IMG/VR virus record: IMGVR_UViG_3300031772_000221
Location: 1-27,773 of that record
Strand: one strand, 5' to 3'
Origin: a virus
DNA length: 27,773 nt
Shown here: piece after piece, positions 259 to 24,010 of the stretch
How the letters are laid out: every line of letters begins with the position of its first letter
Position numbering within the stretch: position 1 is the first letter of the stretch
The notes under the pieces: model-generated
The model's database searches: none
Seen by the model: the letters and a program-made list of their open reading frames with translations, nothing else
What the model was told of the DNA's origin: nothing
Program-made: the position numbers and the translations under genes

Positions 259-855
259 TCATAACCTCCCACCGTCGGCAATCCATTCCCAATCATGAAC
301 GCAGGCACGGGCAGCTTGCAGTAAATTATCGGGAGGGGCATTGTGAGGCTCGTCGATGCCGGTGTCGACTCCCAGGTCCTTCAATATCTGGACAACCAGC
401 TCCGAGCATCCGAACCGCTTGGCCTCCTCCCGCTTCAGCCAGTTACGGATCGGCTGGAGAACCAGCCACACCAGGGGCTGAAGGACGAGCGATAGGCGCA
501 TAATCCACAGGACGTAGAGGAAATAATCATAGCCGCATCCGATATACGCCCTGGCCGTCCATTGGACATTTTCAGGCGGGAGTATTTTATTATTCCTAAG
601 GACAACCCACTTGCGGGCCTTAAACATATCGGCGGTTGGGCGTAACTTGACCCCACCGATGGAAGACGAGATGTTATTGACATCGTCATAGACCATCTCG
701 GCGTGCGTTGCCGGGTCGCGGATACCAAATACTGCGTTAATCATGAAAGCGATTAATCGACTGCTCCAGATAACGATAACATCGCCGGGGTGGAGGTCCA
801 GGTCCGGCACGAGCCGTCCGTAGCCGATCCCGATCTTGTCGTCTGAAATCATCAT
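259..855 (-). CDS. Permuted papain-like (NlpC/P60, YiiX-type) protein
   Basis: The 198-residue product has the order of motifs seen in permuted NlpC/P60 enzymes (YiiX/YebB/LRAT-like). An early HPGDVIVIW strand is followed by THAEMVYDD with the candidate catalytic His51, and then by FGCSELV with the candidate Cys150. Members of this fold cleave or transfer acyl and peptide bonds, often in cell walls or lipids. A hydrophobic stretch at about residues 111-137 lies between the two motifs, which is unusual for a soluble hydrolase and suggests membrane contact. The gene follows the fibre genes, so a role in wall penetration or lysis is plausible but inferred. The AGGAG sequence is only two bases from ATG 855, so the in-frame ATG at 852 may be the real start. 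Confidence 0.6.
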   Translation of the reverse strand: MMISDDKIGIGYGRLVPDLDLHPGDVIVIWSSRLIAFMINAVFGIRDPATHAEMVYDDVNNISSSIGGVKLRPTADMFKARKWVVLRNNKILPPENVQWTARAYIGCGYDYFLYVLWIMRLSLVLQPLVWLVLQPIRNWLKREEAKRFGCSELVVQILKDLGVDTGIDEPHNAPPDNLLQAARACVHDWEWIADGGRL

Positions 856-860
856 GTCTC

Positions 861-1520
861 CTATGCGATGGACAGAAGGTGCACGGAAAGATAAGTCAAG
901 GTTTCGGTTCCAGAAACGTCAACGGTATCAACATTTCCAGTATTGACATTCATTGCATAGAGTTCGACATAGCCGGAAGCGGCGAGATAAACGATATCGG
1001 CGACGGTTGCTCCCATTTGTCCGTAAGTATTGTTCACGGCCATGTTCAGGCCTGCGGCATATCTGGATCCGTTCACGTAAATCGCGGCAACGACGCCTAT
1101 CGCATCCGTGGTCGGGCAGTTGATAAAATAAACCGCACCCGTCACCGCATAATATCCGGACACGGGGGCCACAAAGCGGTAGTTAGTAACCGAATCAAAA
1201 TTATTACCGGAATCATAGGTCTCGGCATTAAGCAAAACCTTAGTATAAATGTTGTGAGTTAGGTTTAATTGGTCAGCACTGAGGTATGCCCTTGCCCGTG
1301 TTGTGGTATTGACTTGCTTCGCCCCGAGATGCAGGTGGTCGAATGTCGGCCCGTCTGCCGTCGTCAATCCCGCCACCGCCGCCTGATTCAACGTCGCCCA
1401 AAGCTTATCCCCGCGCCAGTACTGGGCCGTCGTCCCTGCCGCCACATTCAGTTTGCCGACCTGCTTTTGAAGCGCCGCGACCGTTCCGGCGAGGTAGCTT
1501 AGTTCGTTTTCATTCGGCAT
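861..1520 (-). CDS. Tail fibre/virion protein with C1q-like C-terminal domain
   Basis: The 219-residue product begins with a short coiled-coil-like segment (about residues 1-25). A phage fibre linker with YWRGDKLWATLNQA follows at about residues 34-47. From about residue 75 to the end the sequence resembles a C1q/TNF-type jelly roll: a hydrated strand start (RAYLSADQLNL), a central FVAPVSGYYAVTGAVYF motif, and a final TLTYLSVHLL strand. Such domains trimerise and bind surface ligands at the ends of phage fibres. It lies next to the collar-domain fibre gene, which supports a host-recognition or tail-decoration role. The family call rests on pattern recognition only. Confidence 0.6.
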   Translation of the reverse strand: MPNENELSYLAGTVAALQKQVGKLNVAAGTTAQYWRGDKLWATLNQAAVAGLTTADGPTFDHLHLGAKQVNTTTRARAYLSADQLNLTHNIYTKVLLNAETYDSGNNFDSVTNYRFVAPVSGYYAVTGAVYFINCPTTDAIGVVAAIYVNGSRYAAGLNMAVNNTYGQMGATVADIVYLAASGYVELYAMNVNTGNVDTVDVSGTETLTYLSVHLLSIA

Positions 1521-1811: not shown

Positions 1812-3116
1812 TTATGCCGCCAAAACATATTGCAAGAACATCACGGCCAAAAATGACGGTCTGTTTTCCGTCGCGCTTGCCGCGCCAGTACTGCCCGAAA
1901 TTGTGTGGTTGTGGGACGATCCGGCGCCTGTCGCCGCGCCCGAGGCGGTATGGGCATGGGACGATCCGGCGCCCGTCGCCGCGCCCGAGGCGGTATGGGC
2001 ATGGGACGATCCGGCGCCCGTCGCCGCGCCCGAAGCGGTATGGGCATGGGACGATCCGGCCGCCGTCGATCCTGATATCGCATGGTTGTGCGATGAGCCT
2101 GCCGCCGTCGATCCGCTCAGGGCGTGCCCGTGCGACGACCCCGCTCCGCTCGTGCCCGTATAAATATTATGATAGTGCACGCCAGCAGAACCCGAATCGA
2201 ACGCCGCGATATTGGTGTCGTGTGTATGCTCTCCTGGGTAGTTAGCACCTGTTCCGCTTTTAACGTAACTGCTCGATGTCGGTCCTGTAGATTCGGTGCT
2301 CGGCGGGTTGACCGTATGGACGTGCGCCCCCTCGTTATTTGTCGAAAACGACCCCGGGCCATGCGTATGCGCCGCCTCCGCCTCCGCCGCCAACGTCCCG
2401 CCCGCGTGCGCGTGGCTCGCCTCCGCCGCATTGGATAGCCCCGTAGCCCCGTGCGTGTGGCTCGCCTCCGCGTTGACCGTCACCGCTCCCGCCGCGTGCG
2501 TGTGGCTCGCCTCCGCGTTGACCGTCACCGCTCCCGCCGCGTGCGTGTGGCTCGCCTCCGCGTTGACCGTCACCGCTCCCGCCGCGTGCGTGTGGCTCGC
2601 CTCCGCCGCGTTTACTAATGACCCCACCACATGCGTATGCGCGCTTGAGCTCGATCCCCCTATTCCCCCGACGGTATTACCCCCCATTAAAAATCTATCA
2701 TCCGTCAGATTCGGCAAGTACCGGCCGGGCCCGTTGTATATCGTCGACCCCGGTATGTTGAGCGCCGCTCCATCACAGACATACCAACCCTTCCCATTCA
2801 ATAGCGCGTTGATCCCGGCGGCATCGTTTGACGCGCCGAGGACCCTGGTATATCCGGCGTTTGCGCCATTGGTAAAATATCCGCCGCTCCAGGGAATGAT
2901 CATCCCTTCGGGGAAAACAGAGATGGCAGGCACAAGATCGACTGGCCCGGCAAGTTTCTGAAGTATCATCTTCTGATTCGTCTTGTCGAACCAGATCATT
3001 CCCTCCTGGAGATCGCCCGGATTCGTCGTCTTTGCAAAATGATTCTTCAGCCGGTTATAAGCTTGATAAGCAAGTTTATCATTGAGGACGGCATCGCTAC
3101 CTTGCGCTAAGCTCAT
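1812..3116 (-). CDS. Tail fibre with collar domain and HxH metal-binding repeats
   Basis: The 434-residue product has an N-terminal segment ending near residue 60. A tail-collar domain follows, with PEGMIIPWSGGYF, a GWYVCDG motif, and PNLTDDRFLMGG. The C-terminal end, ENRPSFLAVMFLQYVLAA, is the usual last piece of collar domains. Between these parts lies a long Gly/Ala/Ser region with 16 HxH motifs (SHTH, SHAH, SHNH and others) spaced about 15-25 residues apart. In the T4 long tail fibre tip, HxH motifs of three chains coordinate iron and hold a thin needle together. I infer the same here. AAGGAG precedes ATG 3116. Nearly exact 45-bp repeats in the DNA suggest the shaft can lengthen or shorten. 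Confidence 0.8.
   Translation of the reverse strand: MSLAQGSDAVLNDKLAYQAYNRLKNHFAKTTNPGDLQEGMIWFDKTNQKMILQKLAGPVDLVPAISVFPEGMIIPWSGGYFTNGANAGYTRVLGASNDAAGINALLNGKGWYVCDGAALNIPGSTIYNGPGRYLPNLTDDRFLMGGNTVGGIGGSSSSAHTHVVGSLVNAAEASHTHAAGAVTVNAEASHTHAAGAVTVNAEASHTHAAGAVTVNAEASHTHGATGLSNAAEASHAHAGGTLAAEAEAAHTHGPGSFSTNNEGAHVHTVNPPSTESTGPTSSSYVKSGTGANYPGEHTHDTNIAAFDSGSAGVHYHNIYTGTSGAGSSHGHALSGSTAAGSSHNHAISGSTAAGSSHAHTASGAATGAGSSHAHTASGAATGAGSSHAHTASGAATGAGSSHNHTISGSTGAASATENRPSFLAVMFLQYVLAA
1913..2047 (-). repeat. Three 45-bp tandem repeats in the fibre gene
   Basis: Units at 1913-1957, 1958-2002 and 2003-2047 are nearly identical (isolated C/T and G/A differences). Each encodes the 15-residue unit GSSHAHTASGAATGA. 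A degenerate fourth unit continues beyond 2048 with altered sequence. The repeats sit in the C-terminal half of the HxH fibre shaft. Because each unit is a whole number of codons, slippage would change shaft length without breaking the frame. Confidence 0.9.
2464..2598 (-). repeat. Second set of three 45-bp tandem repeats
   Basis: Units at 2464-2508, 2509-2553 and 2554-2598 are essentially identical and encode the 15-residue unit EASHTHAAGAVTVNA. Flanking sequence on both sides holds decayed versions (for example EASHTHGATGLSNAA). This set has a different sequence from the 1913-2047 set but the same unit length and the same HxH spacing. Two independent local expansions of a 15-residue structural repeat are therefore likely. 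Confidence 0.9.
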
Positions 3117-10540: not shown

Positions 10541-10836
10541 GCTATCCACACCTCAAAATGGGACGTGCTGAAATCCGTCTTCCTATCCGCCCGCATGATG
10601 GGATGATCCTTGCCATCAATAACGATTAGGTCGGCATTCGTCGGCGCCATGATATCCCCGACCAGGTAAACCAGAGCGGCAGAGACAACCTGCTCGCCCT
10701 GGGCGTTACGGATAAGTCGATCCTGCCATTCGATGCGAGCCTTGACGGCAACGGTCATATAGGTGGGCACGTTCCATTGGTCCAGGGCCGTCAAATACTT
10801 GATGGAAATATCGTCGATCAGATATGCCGAGATCAT
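10537..10836 (-). CDS. Head closure (head-tail joining)-like protein
   Basis: The 99-residue product is a small beta-barrel-like protein: YMTVAVKARIEWQDRLI, then AALVYLVGD and ADLIVIDGKDHPI, ending in HFEVWIA. That strand order (a long first pair, an IDG-containing turn and a final strand with a C-terminal Trp) fits SPP1 gp16/HK97 head closure proteins. ATG 10836 overlaps the stop of the MuF-like gene by ATGA. The next gene is a gp10-like neck protein, completing the neck gene set. Confidence 0.7.
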   Translation of the reverse strand: MISAYLIDDISIKYLTALDQWNVPTYMTVAVKARIEWQDRLIRNAQGEQVVSAALVYLVGDIMAPTNADLIVIDGKDHPIMRADRKTDFSTSHFEVWIA

Positions 10837-12563
10837 GCGTTCCTCCAGGCCAGAGCATTCTCGGAGGTCGGGTTAAGGTTATGCTCACAATTACTTGACA
10901 ATACCCCATTGCCAAGATATAATGACGATGGTGATTGGAGGTCGTAAACGTGACCCGTAAACTCAAACCTTCGGACATTGACGACTTGTGTCGTTTGTAT
11001 CAATCCGGGCTTCTCGAAAGTGATCTGGCGAAGCGGTTCAAAATCACTTATCAGAATGTCCATCGATGGCTCGTGAAGAGAGCCATTCCCCTTCGGACCA
11101 TCAGCGAATCCCACCACATCGCCGCCGCCCGCACGAGCAAGGAAGACCGGGCTCGACGTTCGGCCGCCGCTCACGATGCTGTCCGCGGAATGCGCCGCAC
11201 GGTGGAAGATCTCGGTAAGCGCGCCAAGGGGAAAGAGGTTAAACAAAGCCACGCGACGAGAATCGAAAGAATTCTTGCCTCGCTCCTGGAAAACAAGGGC
11301 TTGCCTTGCGTTCTCCAAAAGGCCGTCGGCCCATATAACATCGATGTCGCCATCACAAAACCGCCCATCGCCGTGGAGATATTCGGGGGCCACTGGCACG
11401 CTGGCGGACGACACGCTGGTCGCTTTCGCAAGCGCACGAACTACATTCTCAATCAAGGTTGGTCGGTTGTCTTCGTCTGGGTGGGTCGCGATTATCCTCT
11501 CGAAATCGGGGCAATAGAATACATCGTCTCCTTGGCAAATAAACTTGGCCGCGGCAAAGCCGAACGGAGTAAGGAGCATATGATTCGGGGTGACGGAAAG
11601 CCGAGTGCCATTGGAGAACGAAAGCTCAATGGCCTGTCCCCGATAAAAGGCCCGATGCCCCGCGATAATACCACCGGGCGCTATACATCGCGTCCCCGGA
11701 AGTAAGCAATTCGGATGAACGGGAGGCTCAGCCTCTTCCGGCAACTGATCGTATTCATTACTGTCACCGGAGATCGAATAAACCTCCCCTTCATATTTGG
11801 CGCACTCCTCGCACGGGTTGTCATGTTTCGAGAACTGAACTAGGTCGTTGGCGAACTCCTTGCAGAGCTCCTTCGTCGCCTCAGTCTGCGCCTCCCGCAT
11901 GCGCGTCCGGGCCACCAATTCCGAATAAGCCTTTAACGAATAATTTCGTCCCCGGATATTTATAAAATCGCCACCGCCTATCTTCTTGATAAGGTAATCC
12001 CTGATCTGCCTGCTCACCGTACCGCTCGCCGCCGTTGCCATGCTCACATCCGCCGGTCGCGCCTTTTTTAGGAGCCGCTTGATCCACGGTAGGGCATCCT
12101 CGGCTTCGAACATCTGCACCTGCGCGAGTTTCGTCACGCCCGCCGCCGCCTGGCCCACGACGGCCAGGTACTTCCGCGCCGTTCTCTCGATGGTCCGGTT
12201 GGCCTTCCAGTAATCCGTCATGACCGTCTTCGTCAGCATGGCGATCTTTTTGTCATGTCGCGCCGGGTTGTATTTATTCGCCGGAAGTGTCTTCGCGCCG
12301 ATCATCTCAAGCCGCGTCCGGGCCACGCCCGCGCTTTCCTCATAGGCCGCCCGAATCGCGCCGGGAGCCCACGCTTGCACAGCCGCGTCGAGTTCGCCGA
12401 TGATTTCCTTGACTTGTGATAGCACCGCGCCCGACTTCACGGCCGTATAGCTTTCCGGCTCCAACGAAGACAGGGCCGCGATGATGCGCTCCGCCGCCGA
12501 AGCGTAGACGGACCGGATCTCCGCGATCCGCGTCTTCATCGGAATCAAGGGTAGCTTTTTCAC
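10833..12563 (-). CDS. MuF/SPP1 gp7-like minor head protein interrupted by an intein
   Basis: The 576-residue precursor has a long helical N-terminal part (about residues 1-245) and then the conserved MuF end: NPCEECAKYEG (Cys251, Cys254) and PPVHPN, where the intein enters. After the intein come CEHNLNPTSENALAWRNA. Spliced, the exteins rejoin the HPNC motif typical of this head morphogenesis family, giving a product of 303 residues. Without splicing, the Cys/His cluster that may bind metal is broken. The protein enters the head and aids portal or DNA-ejection functions in relatives. The start is GTG 12563, overlapping the previous stop. Usually this gene lies next to the portal; here it is 11 kb downstream. 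Confidence 0.85.
   Translation of the reverse strand: MKKLPLIPMKTRIAEIRSVYASAAERIIAALSSLEPESYTAVKSGAVLSQVKEIIGELDAAVQAWAPGAIRAAYEESAGVARTRLEMIGAKTLPANKYNPARHDKKIAMLTKTVMTDYWKANRTIERTARKYLAVVGQAAAGVTKLAQVQMFEAEDALPWIKRLLKKARPADVSMATAASGTVSRQIRDYLIKKIGGGDFINIRGRNYSLKAYSELVARTRMREAQTEATKELCKEFANDLVQFSKHDNPCEECAKYEGEVYSISGDSNEYDQLPEEAEPPVHPNCLLPGTRCIAPGGIIAGHRAFYRGQAIELSFSNGTRLSVTPNHMLLTPFGFAAAKFICQGDDVFYCPDFERIIATHPDEDNRPTLIENVVRALAKATSVSSASVPVAPEYLHGDGRFCDGDIDVIWADGLLENARQALVFQERGKNSFDSRRVALFNLFPLGALTEIFHRAAHSADSIVSGGRTSSPVFLARAGGGDVVGFADGPKGNGSLHEPSMDILISDFEPLRQITFEKPGLIQTTQVVNVRRFEFTGHVYDLQSPSSLYLGNGVLSSNCEHNLNPTSENALAWRNA
10895..10923 (+). promoter_or_regulatory. Perfect consensus sigma70 promoter of the antisense endonuclease
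   Basis: TTGACA at 10895-10900 and TATAAT at 10918-10923 are separated by exactly 17 bases, matching the full bacterial consensus at all twelve positions. Transcription would start near 10930, about 20 bases before the GTG start. The promoter lies within the codons for intein blocks F-G (Ser547 to Ser557 on the other strand), two bases from the final Asn558 codon. It would also read antisense through the intein and into the head gene. Confidence 0.85.
10937..10941 (+). promoter_or_regulatory. Ribosome binding site deciding the endonuclease start
   Basis: GGAGG at 10937-10941 is 8 bases before GTG 10950, favouring that start over the TTG at 10935, which overlaps the site itself. The site is antisense to the codons for Asp541-Leu542-Gln543 of intein block F. 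Confidence 0.8.
10950..11705 (+). CDS. Vsr-like (EDxHD-type) homing endonuclease, antisense to the intein
   Basis: The 251-residue product (GTG start) has an N-terminal helix-turn-helix (LKPSDIDDLCRLYQSGLLE to VHRWLVKRAIPLR). A basic helical linker follows. The Vsr/EDxHD-like nuclease core runs from RIERILASLLENKGL through YNIDVAIT, PPIAVEIFGGHWH and RKRTNYILNQGWSVVFVWV. Candidate active residues are the Glu of RIERIL, the Asp of NIDVAI, the Glu of AVEIF and the His residues of GGHWH. A basic tail ends in TSRPRK. Vsr-like homing nucleases of phages are an established family. The gene has its own promoter and ribosome binding site. Its stop (11703-11705) ends two bases before the intein's first base codon is complete, so the gene fits exactly within the intein. 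Confidence 0.88.
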   Translation: MTRKLKPSDIDDLCRLYQSGLLESDLAKRFKITYQNVHRWLVKRAIPLRTISESHHIAAARTSKEDRARRSAAAHDAVRGMRRTVEDLGKRAKGKEVKQSHATRIERILASLLENKGLPCVLQKAVGPYNIDVAITKPPIAVEIFGGHWHAGGRHAGRFRKRTNYILNQGWSVVFVWVGRDYPLEIGAIEYIVSLANKLGRGKAERSKEHMIRGDGKPSAIGERKLNGLSPIKGPMPRDNTTGRYTSRPRK

Positions 12564-15392: not shown

Positions 15393-15911
15393 TCAGCCTC
15401 CTGCCTGCTTCCTGAAAATAACAAGATCGTCCACGGTTCCCAGTTCCTCATAGATGCCCCTGATGTATTTATCGATGACGCTCCTAACGCCCTGCCGGCT
15501 GACGCAGTCGTGGAATGCAATGACGCCTCCCGTTCTGACAAACCGAATCCAGCCGATGTCTTTCAGGACAAAGGGCTCCGAATGGTTGCCGTCTATGAAT
15601 ACGCCGTCGATTTCATCTTTCCACCACTTCAGCACGTCCTCGCTTTTTTCCTTATACCAGGTCACGTTCTTTCCCTTGATGGCCGCCAAAAATGCCGCCT
15701 CAATACCATCCATTTTGTTTATCGGATCGATGTTATAGGGCGCCTCTTGGTCATAGTTGGAAAGAAATGGGTCGATGGCGATGACTTCATTGGATTCCGC
15801 GAGGGCACGGGTCGTCCCTCCCATGTAGCAGCCGACCTCGACGATGGTCTTATTTTCGCCGATGGCTTTCTTAAGGAAGTCAAGCGCATTGCCGCTTATC
15901 AGGGATGACAT
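15393..15911 (-). CDS. SAM-dependent methyltransferase (class I, Methyltransf_24-like)
   Basis: The 172-residue product carries KTIVEVGCYMGGTTRAL (SAM-binding motif I, about residues 20-36), EVIAIDPFL (motif II) and DGVFIDGNHSEP. A GGVIAFHDC strand follows. This order fits the small class I family that also includes sugar O-methyltransferases. It overlaps the preceding GT9 gene by 13 bases. Its place at the end of a glycosyltransferase cassette suggests it methylates a sugar or sugar-modified virion component. The substrate is not visible. Confidence 0.75.
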   Translation of the reverse strand: MSSLISGNALDFLKKAIGENKTIVEVGCYMGGTTRALAESNEVIAIDPFLSNYDQEAPYNIDPINKMDGIEAAFLAAIKGKNVTWYKEKSEDVLKWWKDEIDGVFIDGNHSEPFVLKDIGWIRFVRTGGVIAFHDCVSRQGVRSVIDKYIRGIYEELGTVDDLVIFRKQAGG

Positions 15912-17257
15912 GTCTCGCCCTCTTTTTTCACCGTCAGTTCAAAGCTATAGTCGTTGACGAGCGGTGCCTGATGAATTACCTTAGTGCCGCCTATCTTTTG
16001 AAAGACGGCCTTGATGTATTCGAGCGAAAAATTCGGAATTTTATGAGCCGTGTTGTATAGTTGTCCGGTCTTATTACAATGCTCGTGGTAGATTTGCTCG
16101 TCCGGGCCGAAAAGGATCAGCAATCCGCCCGGCCTCAGCACTCTGAGCCATTCGCGCAGCACGGCCTCGGTATCGACAAAATCCTCAAGCAGATGCGACG
16201 AGTAAACAAAATCGAGTTCATTGTCGGCAAGCCAGTCAAGGCGCGTCGCGTCGCCCAGCACCCGGGGGCAGGCATCGACATTGAGGTCGACGGTTATGGC
16301 CCAGGGAACAATCGGAAGCTCGCCGCCGGCGCCAAGATCACAGCCTTGGCCCACGCAGTATTTAGCGAGCCGGGGTCGGCATTTGGCCGTCTCGGACGGC
16401 GCGACCAGACCGAGGGCTTGGTCGATGGCCTCCCTCATGTCGTCGTCCGTGATAGCGGACATGCAATGGGGGAGGGCTTTTCGGCATGGCACGGCCTCTC
16501 CGCTTTTATTTACGCCTTCATGATGACACCCGAGACAATTAATTTCCCGGAAAATAACAGACTTGACGAGCCGATCATCAATTACTCGGTAAGCCGGATC
16601 GATCATTCCGAAAGGCACCACCGCCGGCCGTCGGAATGCCTGGGCTACGTGAAAGGGCGCACCATCCTGGCCGACGAAGATGTCCGCGTATTCCATGTAT
16701 GCGCAGAGTTCGCTGAATGTCGTCGGCGAAATCATGATATCCGATTCCAGCAAACGTTGGCCTCCCACTTCCAACACGGCATAGCCTTTTTGTCGCAGAT
16801 ATTGGGCCGCGAATTTGTACCTGTCGAGCGGCAGGTTGCGGCCGGGCCAAGTCATTGCCGGTTCGGTATGAAATATGGCTACGCGCCGGCCGGATCGTCC
16901 GGCAGCGACCTTCTCCTCGTCTTCTGCTAAAGGATAAAGATAGAGTTCTCGCAAAGAATCCACGCCGCAAGCCTCAGCGTAAGCATCGATGATGTGCTTC
17001 CGTGGGAAGCGTTCATAGGCTAGGTCGAGGTCAAAGAATTTATCAACCTCGCTCAGCCTGACCGGCCCCTGCACAACGCGGCCGACATCCGGGTTGCGCT
17101 CGAACGCCTGCGGGAAAAAGGCCGATTCAACCGTGATGTGTGCCGACGGATAGCGTTGCTTCAAAGCTCGGATCGTCGCCGTTGCGAGAATACAATCGCC
17201 GAGTGCTGCGGAACGCTTAAGAACGATTCGGCACCTATTGAATCTTTGAGCGTTCAT
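15899..17257 (-). CDS. GT9 heptosyltransferase-like/methyltransferase fusion
   Basis: The 452-residue product fuses two domains. The N-terminal part (about residues 1-290) is GT9-like (ADP-heptose LPS heptosyltransferase type): RSAALGDCILATATIRALK near the start and GQDGAPFHVAQAF near the nucleotide site. The C-terminal part is a class I methyltransferase with CDLGAGGELPIV, DATRLDWLADNELDFVYSSH and LRVLRPGGLLILF. I start at ATG 17257, which overlaps the previous stop by ATGA; the first ATG at 17281 lacks a good ribosome binding site. Cys-rich CLGCHHEG lies near the join. It probably builds and caps a virion sugar, by context. Confidence 0.8.
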   Translation of the reverse strand: MNAQRFNRCRIVLKRSAALGDCILATATIRALKQRYPSAHITVESAFFPQAFERNPDVGRVVQGPVRLSEVDKFFDLDLAYERFPRKHIIDAYAEACGVDSLRELYLYPLAEDEEKVAAGRSGRRVAIFHTEPAMTWPGRNLPLDRYKFAAQYLRQKGYAVLEVGGQRLLESDIMISPTTFSELCAYMEYADIFVGQDGAPFHVAQAFRRPAVVPFGMIDPAYRVIDDRLVKSVIFREINCLGCHHEGVNKSGEAVPCRKALPHCMSAITDDDMREAIDQALGLVAPSETAKCRPRLAKYCVGQGCDLGAGGELPIVPWAITVDLNVDACPRVLGDATRLDWLADNELDFVYSSHLLEDFVDTEAVLREWLRVLRPGGLLILFGPDEQIYHEHCNKTGQLYNTAHKIPNFSLEYIKAVFQKIGGTKVIHQAPLVNDYSFELTVKKEGETCHP

Positions 17258-18909
17258 ACCAGCCCCGCATTCATGACCCACCCGCCTTCAATCCGGCGCG
17301 GAGCATCCCCCGTCCATTCCCGAACAGTGCTACCGGGATCATGCCGGATGTGTTCCCTGGGGATCCCTATCCAGTTCAGGCCCTTTCCGCTGGAATGGCC
17401 GAGGCCGGGAAATTGTTTCAGGATTTTTCCCGACAACCCCCTTTTATGAATATCGAGCATCGTCAGATAGCATGGTGCGCCGTGGTGGACGTAGGGATGG
17501 AATTTTCTGTAGTTCCTGATGTCTATGAGCTGGAACATAGGATGAAGGTACGGCATCCACTCACCGGGCGTGTTGTGCCCCGGCCAGCCCCACTCGAAGC
17601 CGTCGAATGCCGTCTTCTCCTCTATGTAGCCGACGCCGAACGTGTCCTCCTCCATCATCTCAAACATGGCCTGGACCGGGGACTTCAGCATTTCTATATC
17701 GGAATCGAAAATGAGGACATAGAGAGTTTTGGCTTGGTCGATGCCCATGCACATTCCGCGCCCATGACCGATGTTGTAGCCGAGCGAAACGACGGTCGTC
17801 ACGCCCGACGCCAGCCCGCGCACGTAGGCCGCGCATGGGTCGCTCTTGTCCGATCCATCGATGATGATGATCGGCATGTCGGGGTGGAATTTGCGGATTG
17901 AATTATAGGCCCGCTCAATCAAATCTTTCGTGTTTTGGCAGATCGTGATCCCGGTTATGGGAAGAGCGACGGGCGGGAAGTATGAGCCGTAGTTTTCGCT
18001 TGTCAGTTTCCCGCTCAATATATCCAGGTAAACCTGATAATCCCTCGGCACCCATTGCTTGAAGATTATTCTCTCCCCATTGTCGATTCTGTGATACAGA
18101 CCCGGATTATGACCCGCCCCTATGCCGACGCGACCGGGCAATCCCTTGATACCCAAGTATAGCGGTTTGTCGGTATCGTCAAAAAGGCGTCCTCGATGAC
18201 CGGCCTTCTGCCATATCCGCATATCTAAGGATGTATCGCCCGGCCAAAGCGTTTCAAGCTCGGGCAGGAATGACTTTCGAAAGGCGGTCTCGGCAAGCGA
18301 GGCATGGGTTCTGTTCGCGATTTGAAGATAGCCGCCGGTCGGTAGGTGATAGTATTTGGCCCTCATAATGCCGACGACCTCATACTGGTCGAGTCGACTT
18401 GCCATCTCCGCGACATAGCCGGGGGCATAGTATTCGTCGTCCTCCATGATGATGACCTTCTCCCCCTTGATAAGCGGGAGGACAGTTTTAAGATTGAGGA
18501 TCAACGTATGCCGTGGGTCATCCGTCCGTGGTTCCCGCCGGACATACTGCATGGCCGCTGTGGGCGTGAGTGGAATCTTACCATCGTCCACAACGATCCA
18601 TTGGCCCGGTTGTCTTGTCTGATGCCCCATCCATTGCCGACAAAGTGCAAATGCCAGCGGTCTATCTCCCGTGGGCGTAATCGCCGTAATCGTCGGATCC
18701 GTGATCTTTGGACCCACCGCGGCCGTCGGATACTGGGACCAGCCCCCCGCGATCACCGGATTCGGGGGGATAGGCGTTCTATATGTCCTATGACTTGTAA
18801 TCCGGATGTCCCCCGTAGTGATCGGCGGAGACGGAGCCACCCTATATGTTCTTTGTCGCTTTCGCTGAGCTATGATTTCCGCGACGTGGGCATCTCTCGT
18901 CGTTATCAT
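17254..18909 (-). CDS. Two-domain GT-A (GT2-like) glycosyltransferase
   Basis: The 551-residue product has two tandem GT-A-type domains. The first (about 70-290) has VVDDG (106-110) and the metal-binding-like MEDDEYY (155-161). The second (about 318-520) starts GITICQNTKDLIERAYNS, has IIIDGSDKSD, and a DxD motif in FDSDIEM (402-404). A proline-rich linker (about 24-70) follows an N-terminal tail MITTRDAHVAEIIAQR that closely resembles the start of the upstream gene. Both domains keep acidic metal motifs, so it may add two sugars in sequence. It overlaps the upstream gene by ATGA. Confidence 0.8.
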   Translation of the reverse strand: MITTRDAHVAEIIAQRKRQRTYRVAPSPPITTGDIRITSHRTYRTPIPPNPVIAGGWSQYPTAAVGPKITDPTITAITPTGDRPLAFALCRQWMGHQTRQPGQWIVVDDGKIPLTPTAAMQYVRREPRTDDPRHTLILNLKTVLPLIKGEKVIIMEDDEYYAPGYVAEMASRLDQYEVVGIMRAKYYHLPTGGYLQIANRTHASLAETAFRKSFLPELETLWPGDTSLDMRIWQKAGHRGRLFDDTDKPLYLGIKGLPGRVGIGAGHNPGLYHRIDNGERIIFKQWVPRDYQVYLDILSGKLTSENYGSYFPPVALPITGITICQNTKDLIERAYNSIRKFHPDMPIIIIDGSDKSDPCAAYVRGLASGVTTVVSLGYNIGHGRGMCMGIDQAKTLYVLIFDSDIEMLKSPVQAMFEMMEEDTFGVGYIEEKTAFDGFEWGWPGHNTPGEWMPYLHPMFQLIDIRNYRKFHPYVHHGAPCYLTMLDIHKRGLSGKILKQFPGLGHSSGKGLNWIGIPREHIRHDPGSTVREWTGDAPRRIEGGWVMNAGLV

Positions 18910-19694
18910 GGGTGTACGTCCAGTTCCGTCGGTAAGATCATCGGAAGTACCAAGTCAACATCGCCGAATCCGAAGCACCTGAGCGCCGAATTCGGGTTGA
19001 GGTTGATGATCCGGGGCTTGCCGTTGAGCAACGCCGCCCCGGCTTCAAAAGCCCGCCGAAATATATTCATTGCATCCGGCTTCGCCCCGGAGGGATAGCC
19101 GTCGTGATAATTCTTTTCCCCGGCAGGCCCTTTCGAGCAGTCATAGCCGAGTAAATAGATCGGGTCCGCACCCAGCACCATTGCCAGATTCAGGGCCCCG
19201 TAGCCCGAGTTCCGTCCGTTATAAAGTCCCTCGTAGAGGCTCTTCGTCCAGCCGATCTCCCCGGCCGAGGGAACGGAATAAACCCCCGGCGGGTATGAAT
19301 AATTAGAAAGGTCAAGCCACAGCTTCACGCCCCCGAAGGATTCAAATGCTTGGCGATAATTCTCGCCGAGCCTCCCCGTCATAATGAGGTCTAGGAATGA
19401 CCTGTCCATTCCGAACACAATGTCCGCAAACGGGACGTCCAGGAACGCCTTATTGACGGCGATGACCCGCTCGCCCCGGAGCCGTTCGAAGTCAAACCCC
19501 TTGAGGCTCGGTCCGCCGCCGACGATAAAGCACCGCCGGCCGGACCAGGAGCCATCGGAGAATCGTTCTATAAAAGCCTGGGATTCGCCTCTAGAGCGAA
19601 ACGTCCGGACGCGCGCCCGGTCACGTTGCTGTTGCTGTCTCATGGCCATGATCCGGCCCACTCGGGCATCCCTGGTCGTAATCATCGCGCTCAT
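18906..19694 (-). CDS. DUF115/GT42-like sugar-processing protein
   Basis: The 262-residue product has FIVGGGPSLKGFDFERL (about 56-72), RVIAVNKAFLDVP and DIVFGMDRSF. Later it has NSGYGALNLAMVLGADPIYLLGYD. The GGGPSL and S-G-x-x-A-x-x-L-A-x-x-L-G-x-x-x-I-x-L-x-G-x-D pattern is shared by DUF115 (MptE-like) proteins and GT42-type sialyltransferases. The N-terminus MITTRDARVGRIMAMR matches the next gene. It is the first gene after the capsid terminator. A transferase in virion glycosylation is likely; the exact family is uncertain. The in-frame ATG at 19685 is an alternative start that aligns the shared N-terminus exactly. Confidence 0.65.
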   Translation of the reverse strand: MSAMITTRDARVGRIMAMRQQQQRDRARVRTFRSRGESQAFIERFSDGSWSGRRCFIVGGGPSLKGFDFERLRGERVIAVNKAFLDVPFADIVFGMDRSFLDLIMTGRLGENYRQAFESFGGVKLWLDLSNYSYPPGVYSVPSAGEIGWTKSLYEGLYNGRNSGYGALNLAMVLGADPIYLLGYDCSKGPAGEKNYHDGYPSGAKPDAMNIFRRAFEAGAALLNGKPRIINLNPNSALRCFGFGDVDLVLPMILPTELDVHP

Positions 19695-23445: not shown

Positions 23446-23467
23446 TAATACTATGAGAGAAAAGAGA

Positions 23468-24010
23468 ATGAAAAAAAATGAACAAATCCTCGATTCTGGT
23501 TCGATCATTTCTTGGAATAAAGAGTTTCAAAAAACCGATCCTAATGGATCGAAGAGAGTTATGGTTAATATCACTTGTGGCAAATGTGGAAATATTCGTC
23601 CGTGGCGAAAAGATATGGTTTTGATGAAATTGAAAACAGGTATCTTTACAGGCGTTTGTTGGAAATGTTTTATTCATCTTACATGGCAAGAAAAACATAG
23701 AAATCGTCCTCTTAAGCGAAAACAAACTCCACATGGATATATGAAAATATTTCTTGGTATTCATCATCCAATGACAGATAAGCGTGGTGAAATTTATGAA
23801 CATCGTCTTGTAATGTCTGAACATCTTGGCCGTCCATTGGAAACCTGGGAAACGGTTCATCATAAAAACGGAAATCGAGCAGATAACCGAATTGACAATC
23901 TTGAACTTTTCCCTTCCTATGAACATAAATCTACGGATAGAATGAGCCAACGAATCAAACAATTGGAATCTATCCTTATTGAAAATCATATTTCCGTTCC
24001 TAAATCCTGA
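23468..24010 (+). CDS. HNH homing-type endonuclease
   Basis: The 180-residue product (from ATG 23468) has a zinc-knuckle pair, TCGKCG and CWKCF, then a typical phage HNH core: YEHRLVMSEHLGRPL, VHHKNGNRADNRIDNLELF and PSYEH. The composition is clearly AT-rich compared with all neighbours, a sign of recent transfer. I prefer ATG 23468 over 23453, because transcription probably begins at about 23452 and an AGAGA sequence precedes 23468. Its end overlaps the portal end by 25 bases, tail to tail. HNH genes beside terminases can aid packaging, but its own promoter and composition favour a homing element. Confidence 0.85.
   Translation: MKKNEQILDSGSIISWNKEFQKTDPNGSKRVMVNITCGKCGNIRPWRKDMVLMKLKTGIFTGVCWKCFIHLTWQEKHRNRPLKRKQTPHGYMKIFLGIHHPMTDKRGEIYEHRLVMSEHLGRPLETWETVHHKNGNRADNRIDNLELFPSYEHKSTDRMSQRIKQLESILIENHISVPKS

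Follow-up and report, generated by a model that had tools for sequence, protein, structure and literature searches.

The stretch of viral DNA analysed here, hereafter the window, comprises 27,773 nucleotides (IMG/VR record IMGVR_UViG_3300031772_000221) and contains on its minus strand the gene of a MuF-like minor head protein precursor (10833-12563; 576 aa, GTG start), which is matched by Pfam Phage_min_cap2 (7.9e-11) and by a PHROG minor head protein family (5.7e-28). Residues 286-558 of this protein constitute an intein of 273 aa (10890-11708, minus strand, read from 11708 to 10890) with the junctions HPN|C and SSN|C; its splicing residues are C1 and N273, both invariant across the aligned copies, followed by a cysteine at +1. 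AlphaFold2 models residues 1-70 and 235-273 with confidence (pLDDT >83) as a Hint domain, for which PDB inteins are the top structural matches; residues 81-127 are of intermediate confidence (pLDDT about 74-88), and residues 130-230 are mostly at a pLDDT of ~50 or lower. The splicing blocks A-B (11544-11708), F (10932-10961) and G (10890-10922) all lie on the minus strand. The Pfam profile Intein_splicing is matched by 37/38 relatives; the window intein itself stays under the cut-off (0.0025), and this was the only Pfam match within the excised intein, in which no nuclease domain was detected. The element is thus a complete Hint intein inserted at HPN|C of the head protein, at exactly the coordinates proposed earlier from the sequence alone, while splicing itself is inferred.

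Several other genes of the window deserve mention. A free-standing gene for an HNH_3 endonuclease (23453-24010, plus strand; 2e-11) is adjacent to the portal gene, oriented opposite to the genes around it, and is probably a second homing endonuclease gene. Of four genes in the structural region (15393-19694, minus strand), two have methyltransferase domains, one of these also with a weak match to family 9 glycosyltransferases, a third encodes a family 2 glycosyltransferase, and the fourth gives a weak MptE-like match. A long protein with tandem HTHAAGAVTVNAEAS-type repeats, for which no Pfam match was found, is encoded at 1812-3116 (minus strand) and is probably a tail fibre or collar protein.

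On the plus strand opposite the intein, a reading frame is open from 10935 to 11705, and the best start is a GTG at 10950. Profile matches, the predicted structure and the selection on it indicate that the resulting gene (10950-11705, plus strand) encodes a nuclease of 251 aa, a putative homing endonuclease, in which a helix-turn-helix (HTH) is joined to a domain of the Vsr/EDxHD fold, as found in both models and profiles. The HTH (10962-11090, plus strand) is recognized as resolvase-type (HTH_7) in 17/41 aligned relatives, and the N-terminus structurally matches the HTHs of resolvases and transposases (matches to Hin, IstA and Pax HTHs). The MTES_1575 endonuclease profile is matched in 38/41 of these relatives, with values down to 6.6e-11; the window nuclease reaches 1.8e-5 with this profile and 1.4e-5 with the NCBIfam profile vsr, both under the curated cut-offs. 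Since neither the window intein nor its nuclease passes the Pfam cut-offs by sequence, the family argument is carried by the relatives.

The catalytic core (11247-11564, plus strand) is defined by invariant residues and by structure matches. Y129, D132, E143, GG, W149, H150, R162 and G170 are invariant in the 41-sequence alignment and E106 is nearly so; Vsr residues align with D132 and W149-H150, and the residues were not matched one by one to the motif of I-Bth0305I. The AlphaFold2 model of the nuclease (mean pLDDT 89.6) has Escherichia coli Vsr as its best PDB match (1cw0; Z 11.3, rmsd 2.3 A over 115 residues), and it also superimposes on the homing endonuclease I-Bth0305I (3r3p; Z 9.7, rmsd 2.5 A over 94 residues); Foldseek E-values are moderate (best 1.8e-3). 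An HTH-bearing, Vsr-like nuclease, antisense to the intein and complete from start to stop, had been proposed in the sequence-only reading, and these results bear it out.

The expression signals of the nuclease gene are hidden in the splicing blocks. A sigma-70 promoter with 12/12 consensus matches (TTGACA-N17-TATAAT, 10895-10923, plus strand) lies for the most part opposite block G, and a Shine-Dalgarno (SD) motif GGAGGT (10937-10942, plus strand), 7 nt upstream of the GTG, lies with the start codon opposite block F. In block F, Leu542 is encoded by CTC in 71/86 copies, compared with 22% in the exteins, which provides the GAG of the SD motif, and His538 is encoded by CAT in 60/71 copies, compared with 41% in the exteins, which provides an ATG; the alternative codon CAC yields a GTG start. 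The significance of these signals was assessed with 200 synonymous resamplings of 103 copies in which the intein protein was kept unchanged. TATAAT is present in 56/103 copies (null mean 4.2, maximum 9), the complete promoter TTGACA-N16-18-TATAAT, enriched across relatives, in 24/103 (null 0.0, maximum 1), GGAGG in 53/103 (null 13.8, maximum 22), and the SD motif together with a start codon in 49/103 (null 11.5). Blocks F and G thus encode the start, SD motif and promoter of the nuclease through extreme synonymous codon choice. The proposals that the splicing blocks face the tail, start and promoter of the nuclease, and that the nuclease is a separate gene with its own expression, agree with these computed signals.

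The two genes are overlaid with their codons in register, so that plus-strand positions 1, 2 and 3 are opposite minus-strand positions 3, 2 and 1. A search with only the nuclease protein yielded 56 viral loci, and an intein in a MuF gene, in the same phase and with both frames open, is found opposite the nuclease in 57/57 of these first loci, the window included. The search was extended by a wider viral scan, from which the best 80 of 452 relatives were used, and by a scan of bacterial genomes, which yielded 20 loci from many phyla. Profiles were applied to 160 non-window loci, five of them phage records and nearly all retrieved with the nuclease alone, and in 154/160 a single open frame facing the nuclease contains both ends of the intein. 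Of the exceptions, five (L028, L101, L113, L151 and L157) are located at or near a contig end, beyond which the missing intein end may lie, and in L048 the two intein ends are in different frames. The recurrence of arrangement and phase in 154/160 loci, found mostly by a query that did not include the intein, puts the overlap beyond chance, and the one continuous frame rules out a split intein. The two-sided arrangement is kept in hundreds of phages and prophages.

Searches that did not start from the nuclease gave the same picture. The MuF protein as query retrieved seven phage inteins, and the intein profile alone retrieved new bacterial MuF inteins (L177, L178 and L188), all with an antisense nuclease; the inteins that this profile detected in other genes contain inserts in the intein's own frame and are not accompanied by an antisense nuclease. 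The intein profile, applied to 395 + 385 + 400 genomes, revealed no MuF intein of this type that lacks the nuclease, nor did any occur among seven further phage loci, and viral scans with the intein segment as query gave no matches. The Gordonia phage Angelicage was considered as a nuclease-free case and rejected, as a double-HTH copy is present in addition to a longer unrelated open frame. The suspicion that other MuF inteins might hide antisense genes was thus justified for every such intein opened, and antisense frames full of stops without Vsr conservation, which would have refuted the proposal, were seen in none of those examined.

Some of the loci have peculiarities of their own. The nucleases of L174, L176, L177, L178 and L188, and by eye that of L081, have two or more tandem HTH modules, and the middle of the intein is correspondingly longer. 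The head protein of L075 contains an apparent second, small intein upstream of the one with the antisense nuclease. L196 is a Candidatus Promineifilum breve record listed as a plasmid that contains phage head genes, and there the gene of a "phage minor head protein" has the nuclease on its other strand. In the Salmonella phages PK1 (L194) and PK2 (L195), a CDS in the antisense frame has been annotated (559-1368, plus strand) and labelled "hypothetical protein"; none of the other annotated copies opened has a CDS in this frame.

The subfamily Guernseyvirinae contains both alleles of the head gene, occupied in Snoke, phi135 and sam, and intein-free in XY2 and STP03. The search for an intein-free allele, which had been suggested as a check, was therefore successful; in XY2 and STP03 the extein is in frame at the same site, as a precise insertion demands. 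The inteins of Snoke (Kagunavirus) and sam (Jerseyvirus) are 95.7% identical, compared with 67.5-68.7% for the N-exteins, 78.7-80.0% for the C-exteins and 41% for the upstream DNA. Judged from these sequences, a sporadic element with near-identical inteins in divergent exteins is as expected for a mobile element, although transfer and empty sites would also be compatible with ordinary phage recombination. A further pair, TS6 and SaI_NFG_5577, is 92-100% identical over most of the N-extein and differs in the intein and its immediate flanks (about 100-200 bp to either side), a mosaic that is consistent with co-conversion in a single case.

It should be noted that the reality of both genes does not by itself make the nuclease a homing enzyme. 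It could instead be a Vsr-like protein serving in repair, exclusion or regulation and lodged in an intein by coincidence; in favour of this, Vsr is a repair enzyme, cleavage of the empty site has not been shown, and catalytic motifs are altered in some copies. The nucleases of the Guernseyvirinae have GGGWA instead of GGHWH and thus lack H150, and Pseudomonas copies also lack the GGHWH motif, so that catalysis in both groups is uncertain. Decay of the nuclease in the Guernseyvirinae through loss of this histidine is not supported, because selection in the nuclease frame persists there (changes in the middle at nuclease positions 3:2:1 of 17:3:8, 65:14:31 and 75:17:39). A role other than homing is nevertheless improbable, though it retains some standing: in this analysis the nuclease was never encountered outside the inteins of MuF-like genes, both intein-free alleles and inter-genus transfer are seen, and EDxHD domains are known from homing endonucleases (PMC3943268).

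The division of labour between the two strands was resolved by a substitution test on 42 disjoint pairs (30-90% identity) from 103 non-redundant copies, all chosen to have an open sense frame; a smaller set was also run. In the splicing blocks (residues 286-340 and 525-558), sense position 3 changes faster than position 1 in 39/39 differing pairs, and for blocks A-B the ratio of changes at sense positions 3 and 1 is 1.33, as expected of a segment constrained in the intein frame. In the middle (residues 345-520), it is sense position 1, which is nuclease position 3, that changes faster in 40/40 differing pairs. At 4-fold sites in the middle, change rates are 0.40-0.52 for the nuclease frame and 0.13-0.24 for the sense frame; in the region of the splicing blocks they are 0.12-0.19 and 0.42-0.49, respectively. 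The substitution pattern thus swaps strand inside the element, the splicing ends being governed by the intein frame and the middle by the nuclease frame. Codon substitution patterns on both strands had been named as a test, and they reveal each strand to be constrained in its own segment; that the nuclease core lies opposite the non-splicing insert is likewise confirmed. The codons TTA, CTA and TCA, which create stops on the opposite strand, are used for none of the 2,347 leucine and serine codons of the nuclease (1,232 Leu, 1,115 Ser; the 103 copies selected for an open sense frame), while about 377 would be expected from the codon usage of the exteins.

A short stretch in the middle is constrained on both strands. 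The sense motif HGDG (11364-11375, minus strand) is opposite nuclease residues P139-I140-A141-V142, and the nuclease codons there are far from background usage (V142 is GTG in 95/97 copies, A141 GCC in 94/98, P139 CCC in 58/58). A signal at the DNA level behind this conservation is unlikely because the adjoining sense residues 395 and 396 vary among the copies. The motif "HGDG/DVxWADG", by which the sequence-only reading had characterized the insert, is mostly a shadow of the catalytic core of the nuclease, and only HGD(G) stands as a motif with an extra sense-strand constraint. Two divergent copies, L080 and L165, have YGR in place of the sense HGD, and the intein start of L080 looks different.

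This double constraint, which exceeds the needs of the nuclease, together with the intermediate model confidence of intein residues 81-127, might suggest that the middle is a functional sense-strand domain and that both overlapping genes are fully constrained. Such a domain is very unlikely, since third bases are near background in most well-conserved nuclease codons of the middle; the codons that deviate most face sense residues 346, 351, 397, 398 and 400, several others deviate mildly, and outside 346, 351 and 397-400 most of the well-conserved 4-fold codons stay near background. In addition, most of intein residues 130-230 have a pLDDT near or below 50. Finally, a codon-on-codon register is easily kept open and the conservation of one strand always shadows the other, but the idea that the intein alone is real and the antisense frame its shadow has practically no support left, being already contradicted by the fast nuclease position 3 in 40/40 pairs, by the specific nuclease fold and family matches of the antisense product, and by a promoter and SD motif in excess of a synonymous null that keeps the intein protein, and the substitution test, the absent TTA, CTA and TCA codons and the excess of signals rule out a chance reading frame as well.

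The element is therefore very probably a mobile intein with its homing endonuclease gene on the opposite strand. Both open frames and their conservation, selection specific to each strand, the expression signals, the fold match, the empty sites and the inter-genus transfer have been established computationally, and splicing, cutting, the cut site and homing are inferred from the families. The minus strand would be translated together with the late head protein, and the Hint domain would excise itself and join the exteins, so that the invaded head gene stays functional. Transcription of the nuclease gene would begin at its own sigma-70 promoter, concealed in block G, and the SD motif and start codon for its translation would be supplied by block F. 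The nuclease is predicted to bind MuF genes without an intein in phages that infect the same cell and to cleave them near HPN|C; with the intein-bearing copy as repair template, intein and nuclease would then spread together. The codon-on-codon register would enable each strand to avoid the stops of the other through synonymous choice of leucine and serine codons, and most of the intein middle may be a passenger linker.

Bifunctional inteins with an in-frame LAGLIDADG or HNH nuclease resemble the present element in that a nuclease responsible for mobility interrupts the Hint domain after block B and before block F, and they are also mobile with existing empty alleles. Their nuclease is, however, in the splicing frame, a criterion not fulfilled by the window intein, whose nuclease is encoded by a separate antisense gene with its own promoter, SD motif and start. 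The nearest precedent may be the "fractured genes" that Dassa et al. reportedly described in 2009, split inteins with a free-standing Vsr-like nuclease gene between the halves. They share the same broad nuclease type and a separate gene between intein parts, whereas the window intein, whatever the orientation of the nuclease gene in fractured genes, is one continuous frame that reads through the antisense nuclease gene.

The EDxHD homing endonuclease I-Bth0305I is derived from a group I intron (PMC3943268). It and other EDxHD enzymes share with the window nuclease the Vsr-type fold, a separate DNA-binding part and the phage origin; the family described here differs in its resolvase-type HTH modules (one or more), its E143 and GGHWH, and its antisense position in an intein. 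The segD gene of T4 is a free-standing phage homing endonuclease gene in antisense orientation (PMC2988022), and it is thus also opposite to its surrounding genes, but it does not overlap a splicing element codon for codon. The Vsr mismatch endonuclease (1cw0, 1vsr) has the closest fold by Z-score and, unlike the window nuclease, is a repair enzyme that has no HTH and is not mobile.

Full-text searches of open-access literature, which misses most subscription papers, turned up no previous description of an intein with an endonuclease encoded antisense to it. We consider it likely that inteins of this kind form a widespread mobile class not recognised before, with splicing domain and nuclease encoded codon on codon on opposite strands, signals accommodated in blocks F and G by synonymous choice, and a stretch of four codons, HGDG over a catalytic strand of the nuclease, that serves both proteins.

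Annotation pipelines miss such antisense genes. As stops can be introduced into the nuclease without changing the intein protein, the arrangement can be tested directly with constructs in phage. As an instance of genes that overlap in antisense, it is natural, large and very clean: the constraint on each strand can be read position by position, and the bases of two protein motifs double as promoter, ribosome-binding site and start codon. For inteins, it would represent a third way to couple a homing nuclease to a splicing element, in addition to in-frame fusion and gene fracture, one that uncouples expression of the nuclease from the invaded late head gene, and the phage MuF inteins regarded as "HEN-less" are probably not HEN-less.
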